A DNA stretch of 42,122 bases, taken from positions 1-42,122 of the IMG/VR virus record IMGVR_UViG_3300046817_000512; one strand, given 5' to 3'. The DNA is from a virus. The notes under the pieces were generated by a model. The model was not told the DNA's origin, did no database searches, and saw nothing but the letters and a program-made list of their open reading frames with translations. Below, one piece after another: positions 32,844 to 34,191 of this stretch. Numbering within the stretch: the first letter of the stretch is position 1; every line of letters starts with the position of its first letter. A program made the translations under genes and the position numbers.

Positions 32844-33079
32844 TGACCCGCCGCATCCCGACCATGAAAGACGTTGAGCGCCACGGCTACGCGGTGTTCC
32901 CCGATGACGTTGTAGACGCCCTCCTGGGGCCGATGCCGCCCGGCATGAAGCGCGAAGACGCGCGGCCCTATCACCCTGAAACGTGGCCCCCGGACAAGCC
33001 CGGCCTCGAATATCTGCACCGCGCTCTGGCCCGCGAACTGATCACGAAAATGAAAAAGCAGCGCCGCTTCAGGACATGA
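32843..33079 (+). CDS. Hypothetical protein
   Basis: This 78-residue protein starts MTRRIPTMKDVERHGYAVFP and continues DDVVDALLGPMPPGMKREDA. It ends with a basic helix (LARELITKMKKQRRFRT). The layout suggests a small nucleic-acid or protein-binding factor. The stop overlaps the start of the methyltransferase (ATGA), indicating coupling between the two. The function is unknown. Confidence 0.65.
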   Translation: MTRRIPTMKDVERHGYAVFPDDVVDALLGPMPPGMKREDARPYHPETWPPDKPGLEYLHRALARELITKMKKQRRFRT

Positions 33080-34191
33080 CCCATGTGGCTCTACATTCCC
33101 CGGCCCGAGACCTCCACGCCGTCAGCTTCTGCACCGGCGCCGCCGCCCTCGACCTTGGACTGGCCATCGCAATTCCACGCCTTCGTCCTGTCCTCTACGT
33201 GGAGAGGGAGGCCTTCGCCGTCGCGGCTCTGGTCGAAGCGATTGAGGCGGGCGCCTTGGATGCGGCGCCTATTTGGAGTGATGCCCGAACCGTCCCAGGC
33301 CGACGATTTCGTGGCTGCGTGGACATCGTTTTTGCGGGCATCCCGTGCCAGCCGTACAGCGTGGCCGGAAAGCAGGCCGGGGCCGATGACGCCCGCGACC
33401 TCTGGCCAGCCCTGCGCCGCCTCATCGTCCAGGCCCGGCCCTGGTGCGTCTTCATCGAGAATGTCGGCGGCCTGCTCGGCGATGACGCCGCCCACCGAAT
33501 TTTCCGAAGCCTTCGTCGGCTGGGTTTCCAGATTGAGGGAGGACTATTCACAGCGGCAGAGGTCGGCGCGCCCCAGGAGCGGGAACGCCTATTCATCCTT
33601 GCGGTCGCGAAAGACCACCGGCCCGGAAAGCCAGCCGCTGTTCCCGCTCGACCAGTGGCCGACGCCGACCGAACGGGACCACCGGTCGATCCACGCCAGC
33701 CCGGCGACCCACGCCTTCAATTCCAGGCCGCTGTCAGAGGCGGTGGGCCTGTGGGCCACGCCGCTGGCGACGGACGGCGACAAGGGGGGCCCGGCCCAGC
33801 AGTTCGGCACGGGCGGCAGGCCGCTGACCGGGCAGGTGTCGCTGTGGGCTACGCCTACGGTCGCCGACACCGAGGGGGGCCGTCAGGCCCGGTCGGGCGA
33901 GCGAAACCACGAACTGTTGCTGGGTGGTCAGGCCAAGGCTCTGCTTGGCCTCCCGGCCCCCTCAACGATCCCGCCTGGCGGGAACTCCTCGCGGTACGGC
34001 CTCGTCTTGAACCCGTGGTTCGTCGAGAGGCTGATGGGCTGGCCGACCGGCTGGACCGCCTCAGACTTCTCGGCAACGGCGTTGTCCCACTGGAAGCGGC
34101 GTATGCGTTCTGCACTCTCGCGGCTCGGCTCGCCGCCGTCTGCCCCCGTGCAGCTGGACTTCTTCGAGTGAAAAAAGGACCCCCGCCATGA
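33076..34191 (+). CDS. C5-cytosine DNA methyltransferase
   Basis: This 371-residue enzyme has FCTGAAALDLGL (18-29, AdoMet binding), GIPCQPYSVAG (88-98, catalytic Cys91), FIENVGGLL (126-134) and QERERLFILAVA (167-178). The C-terminal LGNGVVPLEAAYAF (332-345) is the conserved last motif. All hallmarks are in one frame without interruption. The ATG at 33076 was chosen because it overlaps the previous stop and leads straight into the first motif. It methylates cytosine, presumably to protect phage DNA from host restriction. The target domain is short and Gly/Arg-rich because the same DNA carries a second gene in another frame (33482-34171). Confidence 0.9.
   Translation: MTHVALHSPARDLHAVSFCTGAAALDLGLAIAIPRLRPVLYVEREAFAVAALVEAIEAGALDAAPIWSDARTVPGRRFRGCVDIVFAGIPCQPYSVAGKQAGADDARDLWPALRRLIVQARPWCVFIENVGGLLGDDAAHRIFRSLRRLGFQIEGGLFTAAEVGAPQERERLFILAVAKDHRPGKPAAVPARPVADADRTGPPVDPRQPGDPRLQFQAAVRGGGPVGHAAGDGRRQGGPGPAVRHGRQAADRAGVAVGYAYGRRHRGGPSGPVGRAKPRTVAGWSGQGSAWPPGPLNDPAWRELLAVRPRLEPVVRREADGLADRLDRLRLLGNGVVPLEAAYAFCTLAARLAAVCPRAAGLLRVKKGPPP
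33482..34171 (+). CDS. Overprinted gene inside the methyltransferase (WATP/GWT protein)
   Basis: In the other frame, an ATG at 33482 opens a 229-residue protein: a helical head (EAFVGWVSRLREDYSQRQRS), W-x-TP modules at residues 59-62, 91-94 and 122-125 (WPTP, WATP, WATP), and LNPWFVERLMGWPTGWT at 176-192. SATALSHWKRRMRSAL follows. I recognise this series from proteins next to, or annotated as parts of, phage cytosine methyltransferases. It lies wholly inside the methyltransferase gene, whose own motifs are intact. I infer two real proteins from one stretch of DNA. A spurious frame is unlikely, given the known motifs. No strong ribosome site is seen. Confidence 0.7.
   Translation: MTPPTEFSEAFVGWVSRLREDYSQRQRSARPRSGNAYSSLRSRKTTGPESQPLFPLDQWPTPTERDHRSIHASPATHAFNSRPLSEAVGLWATPLATDGDKGGPAQQFGTGGRPLTGQVSLWATPTVADTEGGRQARSGERNHELLLGGQAKALLGLPAPSTIPPGGNSSRYGLVLNPWFVERLMGWPTGWTASDFSATALSHWKRRMRSALSRLGSPPSAPVQLDFFE

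Follow-up and report, generated by a model that had tools for sequence, protein, structure and literature searches.

Does a phage methyltransferase gene in which a second reading frame stays open from end to end encode one protein or two, and if two, are they parts of the same enzyme? The question arises from a locus in the 42,122-nt stretch of DNA analysed here in its entirety (the window), which belongs to a temperate phage with portal, terminase and integrase matches. Two frames are open together across ca. 1.1 kb of shared DNA, frame 2 being +1 relative to frame 1 (Table 1). A preliminary description had noticed both of them, with the protein signatures of each, over 690 bp; the signatures are indeed all there and the overlap is larger than was claimed. 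It is near certain that both frames are coding, and we consider it probable that they encode the two subunits of a split, heterodimeric C5-cytosine methyltransferase. To our knowledge, it is rare for a same-strand overlap to extend over a whole 1.1-kb enzyme gene, at hundreds of loci and with selection on both frames; the phage overprints known so far are mostly short or nested. In the literature available to us, no previous account of such an overlap in phage methyltransferases was found.

Table 1. Features of the two overlapping frames (positions in the window, except where another locus is named).
Feature	Position	Strand	Remarks
Frame 1, C5-cytosine methyltransferase, probable catalytic subunit (alpha-like)	33076..34191	+	ATG 33076 or GTG 33085; motifs I-VIII, X
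Frame 2, overlapping protein, 362 aa, proposed target-recognition/motif-IX subunit (beta-like)	33083..34171	+	+1 frame
AGGA, Shine-Dalgarno-like site	33071..33074	+	8 nt before frame-2 ATG 33083, 10 nt before frame-1 GTG 33085
ATGTG, overlapping frame-2 ATG and frame-1 GTG starts	33083..33087	+	from the sequence
Motif I SFCTGAAALDLG, frame 1	33124..33159	+	from the sequence
Catalytic motif IV PCQPYS, frame 1	33343..33360	+	C91, Q92, S95 invariant in 74 relatives
Motif VI ENV, frame 1	33457..33465	+	alignment of relatives
Motif VIII QERERLF, frame 1	33577..33597	+	alignment of relatives
W-x-TP module 1 (WPTP), frame 2	33656..33667	+	W192, P193 nearly invariant
W-x-TP module 2 (WATP), frame 2	33752..33763	+	from the sequence
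W-x-TP module 3 (WATP), frame 2	33845..33856	+	W255, T257, P258 nearly invariant
Motif-IX equivalent LNPWFVERLMGWPTGWT, frame 2	34007..34057	+	nearly invariant; spacing like LTPRECWRLQGFPDW of canonical phage methyltransferases
Motif X LGNGVVPLEAAYAF, frame 1	34069..34110	+	G333, N334, G335, V336, V337, P338 invariant or nearly so
Example of a Streptococcus nested +1 ORF	L530 1201-1626		

Enzyme motifs divided between two frames

The open reading frame of frame 1 extends from 32983 to 34191 (402 aa), its likely start being the ATG or the GTG given in Table 1. All the catalytic motifs of a C5-cytosine DNA methyltransferase, i.e., I, IV (PCQ), VI (ENV), VIII and X, are present in it, with the signatures SFCTG (motif I), PCQPYS, ENV, QERERLFIL and LGNGVVPLEAAYAF, and phrog_363 matches it over almost its full length (E=3.5e-44). 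The match to the Pfam domain PF00145 (DNA_methylase, E=5e-26) is confined to residues 47-213 of these 402 aa. A recognition domain and motif IX are missing from this chain, and nothing resembling LMGxP or LQGxP was found in frame 1 among the relatives listed. The AlphaFold2 (AF2) model gives the same impression, with pLDDT above 90 across most of the catalytic domain, an unstructured middle (residues 208-289 below 50, and 188-332 mostly below 50) and a confident C-terminal motif-X helix (pLDDT ca. 93). Compared with M.HhaI (Z 20.8), ca. 200 of 327 residues were aligned and the recognition domain was skipped; as modelled, the frame-1 product is an HhaI-like catalytic domain that lacks a folded domain for recognition.

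Frame 2 of the window runs from its ATG through 362 codons to a stop at 34169-34171, and displays the signatures WPTP, WATP, WATP and LNPWFVERLMGWPTGWT. The last of these adjoins motif X of frame 1 in one stretch of DNA, where the same bases are read as ADGLADRLDRLR in frame 1 and as LMGWPTGWTASD in frame 2. In hhalign comparisons LNPWFVERLMGWPTGW of frame 2 fell in register with the canonical motif IX LTPRECWRLQGFPDW, a short and weak match (E=0.016) that has a low probability (2.8%) because it is so short. Among PHROG families, frame 2 matched phrog_27243 (E=3.8e-22) and phrog_1008 (E=1.3e-15); taking the window together with related phages, the frame-2 products were assigned to phrog_1008, phrog_16143 and phrog_31772 (DNA methyltransferase) and to phrog_27243, phrog_26627 and phrog_35493 (unknown function). 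In these families the frame-2 product stands as a separate protein, and the overlap is not mentioned in the family tables returned. The AF2 model of frame 2 was too poor to serve as evidence (pLDDT 60, pTM 0.26); searched with it, the PDB contained no solved structure of matching fold and the viral models yielded one distant, uncharacterised phage protein only, and a profile search of the PDB gave chance matches only. With a poor model and no solved fold, the recognition domain of frame 2 is a putative one, assigned from its motifs and their position. The N-terminal half of frame 2 is variable and devoid of methyltransferase motifs, yet it is kept open.

The preliminary description saw in the two frames two unrelated sequences, of which the smaller protein might modulate methylation. 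Neither idea fits well with a second frame that holds the recognition region and the motif IX that the frame-1 methyltransferase lacks; that frame 2 supplies the remainder of the enzyme is the better reading.

The start that had been suggested for the second protein, at 33482, has to be abandoned as well: of 75 relatives in the alignment, 1 has this ATG, and the 229 aa that it would give are the distal portion of frame 2. What is conserved is the start at the 5' end, which gives 362 aa. There, 101 of 108 loci have M-x-W-[LI]-[YL]-x-P in the same place (a W near the start was among the criteria by which frame-2 starts were chosen), with 73 ATG, 17 GTG, 10 TTG and 1 CTG as start codons. Position five of the start motif is a proline in 72 of the 101 loci and has an entropy of 1.34 bits vs. 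2.74 for the variable frame-1 residue that it overlaps. The start codons of the two frames are 2-6 nt apart: the frame-1 GTG comes 2 nt past the frame-2 start in 51 of the 108 loci, and loci of the M-x-W type have a frame-1 ATG 5 nt past it (e.g., L103). Shine-Dalgarno-like sites of at least 4 nt upstream were about twice as frequent as in shuffled sequences (48 of 101 relatives vs. 24.6 +/- 4.2). Sharing such a site, and with adjoining starts, both proteins can initiate from one place.

Stop codons and complementary constraint

A second frame could also be no more than an annotation shadow, open only through GC-richness and the conservation of frame 1. The window by itself gives a weak signal in this respect, with 0 frame-2 stops vs. 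3.05 expected by synonymous shuffling (P ~0.01 overall and ~0.3 for the C-terminal half alone). Taken by itself, its double openness exceeds chance only modestly, and it is the comparative stop data from the relatives that settle dual coding. We retrieved 64 distinct loci with the N-terminal half of frame 1 as the sole query, so that nothing was selected for frame 2. Across these loci, with GC contents from 0.48 to 0.73, there were 6 frame-2 stops, all confined to two loci, against 230 +/- 10 expected by synonymous shuffling (the minimum over 300 shuffles was 207) and 302 +/- 13 by codon permutation. By consecutive segments along the methyltransferase, the observed and expected stops were 3/23, 0/30, 0/13, 0/22, 0/24, 0/20, 0/14, 6/18 and 7/26, and past motif X the depletion was gone (56 vs. 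62). Stops in the third frame were close to expectation along the methyltransferase, and the flanking genes of the same loci, used as a control, showed no deficit (1114 vs. 1072 expected in 110 ORFs). The depletion is bounded exactly by the frame-2 ORF, whose start is conserved. The reverse test gave an equivalent result for frame 1. Where frame 2 holds its recognition region and motif IX, 0 frame-1 stops were counted vs. 71.5 +/- 5 expected, and when 43 distinct loci retrieved through frame 2 were divided into tenths of their length, nine of the ten had zero frame-1 stops, where 14-22 each were expected.

To locate selection, the identity of one frame between pairs of relatives was compared with that predicted from the proteins of the other frame and codon use, with the third frame as control. 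In the N-terminal half the strong constraint is on frame 1, and frame 2 is conserved only slightly above the prediction from frame 1 and the third frame, a point in favor of a shadow. In the middle, W-x-TP, region the constraint lies in frame 2 and frame 1 is nearly free, and in the C-terminal tail both frames are constrained. Each protein is thus conserved in one half, opposite a loosely constrained but open half of its partner frame, and has in addition a tail that is doubly constrained. Freely varying frame-2 codons, the sign of a shadow named in the preliminary description, are not what we find; stops are strongly avoided and the C-terminal half is constrained beyond the demands of frame 1, as expected from its claim that the second frame is coding and under selection. 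The stop-codon data, with control genes behaving normally, refute the annotation shadow, to which we give practically no chance.

The same data bear on another possibility, that there is a single product: ribosomes would shift from frame 1 into frame 2 and thereby fuse recognition region and motif IX to the catalytic domain. Such a fusion would unite motifs I-VIII with the rest of the enzyme, and Gordonia phage Upyo does have two ORFs in that order. However, it would lose motif X, located here in frame 1, and it would leave unexplained the avoidance of frame-2 stops over the whole N-terminal half, that of frame-1 stops through the recognition region, and the conserved frame-2 start. At odds with stop avoidance on both sides, a programmed frameshift is very improbable.

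Distribution among phages and prophages

The arrangement is common to hundreds of phages and prophages, from which it follows that many annotated phage methyltransferases are probably half described. That the pairing is conserved, as the preliminary description supposed, is borne out by nearly all loci of the family having both frames open. Sampled by frame 2, 77 of 80 loci in bacterial genomes (prophages) had both, and frame 1 was open in all 81 viral loci; in a further viral sample, all 37 distinct loci of Erwinia type had both frames open. A stand-alone frame-2 gene, the kind of homologue that had been proposed as a search target, was not found among these 80 + 81 + 37 loci. Frame 1 was damaged in three prophage loci, by one stop each in L165 and L200 and, in L181, by a frame swap midway through the overlap; considered as stand-alone frame-2 genes, they were rejected, since they resemble lesions of draft or metagenome assemblies. 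The swap in L181 (503-1919) trades the C-terminal tails of the two frames and is either a pseudogene or an assembly error.

The +1 overlap is also found in alphaproteobacterial prophages, in Synechococcus phages (where one submitter annotated frame 1 and another frame 2), in phages of Acidovorax, Klebsiella, Stenotrophomonas, Erwinia and Mycobacterium, and in a Paenibacillus plasmid. In several of these other groups frame 2 begins within the methyltransferase gene and not at its start. The depletion of frame-2 stops was confirmed for the Mycobacterium type and amounted to 1 vs. ~115 expected over the first nine tenths in the Klebsiella type. The tree of the catalytic halves had no root, many of its forks were weak, and some of its branches were long. 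Annotations vary too: in Acidovorax phage Alfacinha3 (L247 1193-2359) the frame-2 reading is annotated as “cytosine-specific methyltransferase,” in a Sphingomonas plasmid (L246 1021-2112) as “hypothetical protein,” and in both the real methyltransferase frame is unannotated.

In Gordonia phage Upyo (L253 1000-2269) frame 1 stops after motif VIII, an M.AquI-like split, and the next frame, also open upstream over the first gene, contains L-x-TP modules, a motif-IX-like element and motif X. These elements follow each other in canonical order within a single frame (the L-x-TP modules, LNP...MMGLPDG and GNGVVPQQAAHAL), which supports the view that those of frame 2 are the recognition region and motif IX of one enzyme.

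The Streptococcus phage methyltransferases (L369-L448) are a different case. They are complete in frame 1, and over codons ~48-190 they have a nested +1 ORF of ~140 aa, with 3 stops vs. 38 expected and an excess of synonymous conservation confined to the nested ORF (0.15-0.22 vs. 0.01-0.02). This ORF corresponds to phrog_16143, and the annotations of phages MM1 and pST list it as a second CDS. A +1 ORF in complete enzymes speaks against the split-enzyme reading, and is unexplained by a pure “missing half” model. It would be compatible with frame 2 being a separate overprinted protein (a regulator, inhibitor, anti-restriction protein or chaperone) dispensable for methylation, as would a frame-2 N-terminal half that stays open without any methyltransferase motif. 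In the family of the window, however, motif IX and a folded recognition domain are missing from frame 1, matching elements being supplied by frame 2, and the loci sampled by frame 2 include no free-standing copy; a separate role is therefore unlikely, if less so than a frameshift. It is possible, although we would not put it above an even chance, that a +1 protein over the catalytic half of C5 methyltransferases, found even with enzymes that are complete in one frame, is old and widespread among phages and has its own function, and that the recognition half moved into the second frame in several lineages. One DNA segment would then encode two interdependent proteins along its whole length.

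A split enzyme and its known counterparts

Returning to the heterodimer, which is the reading that we favor and hold to be likely, frame 1 would provide the catalytic subunit, with SAM binding, the PCQ cysteine, motifs I-VIII and a motif X whose helix would pack back onto the catalytic domain. Frame 2 would share the ribosome-binding region of frame 1, with start codons 2-6 nt apart, and would provide a variable N-terminal half and, behind it, the W-x-TP region for target recognition and motif IX. Joined in trans, the two proteins would form an active enzyme and methylate the phage DNA, most likely as a protection against host restriction. The data show that both frames code, that their constraints complement each other and that the motifs are divided between them; actual translation, formation of the heterodimer, methylation activity and this biological role are inferred.

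If the heterodimer is real, many annotated phage “DNA cytosine methyltransferases” would be the catalytic half only, and many phage “hypothetical proteins” the recognition half, coming from the same DNA. This would explain the apparent absence of a recognition domain in such methyltransferases. Cloning and methylome assignment would be affected, and codon-optimising one frame would destroy the other. The locus would also offer a testable system for the evolution of two interdependent proteins in one sequence.

Enzymes of this kind are not without precedent. M.EaeI is, like M.EcoHK31I, a YGGCCR C5 methyltransferase made of two polypeptides, and in M.EcoHK31I the beta ORF sits inside the alpha ORF in a different frame. 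The polypeptides of the window family likewise come from overlapping frames, both of them coding; unlike in M.EcoHK31I, frame 2 spans the whole methyltransferase gene and both starts lie in one initiation region. M.EcoHK31I and M.AquI are natural two-polypeptide C5 methyltransferases (PMC3404938), and natural as well as artificial two-piece C5 methyltransferases work in trans (PMC3404938, PMC3439449). Compared by the published division of motifs, M.EcoHK31I is the closest known system: its large subunit has motifs I-VIII and X and its small subunit motif IX alone (PMC3404938), and in the window too motifs I-VIII and X are on one polypeptide and IX, as judged by a short match, on another. The recognition domain of M.EcoHK31I is predicted to be on the large subunit (PMC3404938), whereas the conserved W-x-TP region of the window is on the second, motif-IX, protein.

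M.AquI (CYCGRG) also resembles the window in having two polypeptides with motif IX on the second (PMC3404938), but its motif X is on the small subunit and that of the window on the large one; the M.AquI type of split is not what we find here, GNGVVP being in frame 1 and LMGWP in frame 2. Gordonia phage Upyo is closer to M.AquI than the window is. A search in E. coli for an M.EcoHK31I-like copy returned a broken prophage gene only; in this prophage of strain PCP07014 (L449 1486-2247) the methyltransferase is annotated as a pseudogene and both overlapping frames are broken at one spot. Finally, the single-chain methyltransferases of the Streptococcus phage Javan240 type share with the window the same frame-1 catalytic motifs and a +1 ORF over the catalytic part, but there motif IX (RLQGFPD) and the recognition region are in frame 1, and frame 2 is nested and ~140 aa long.
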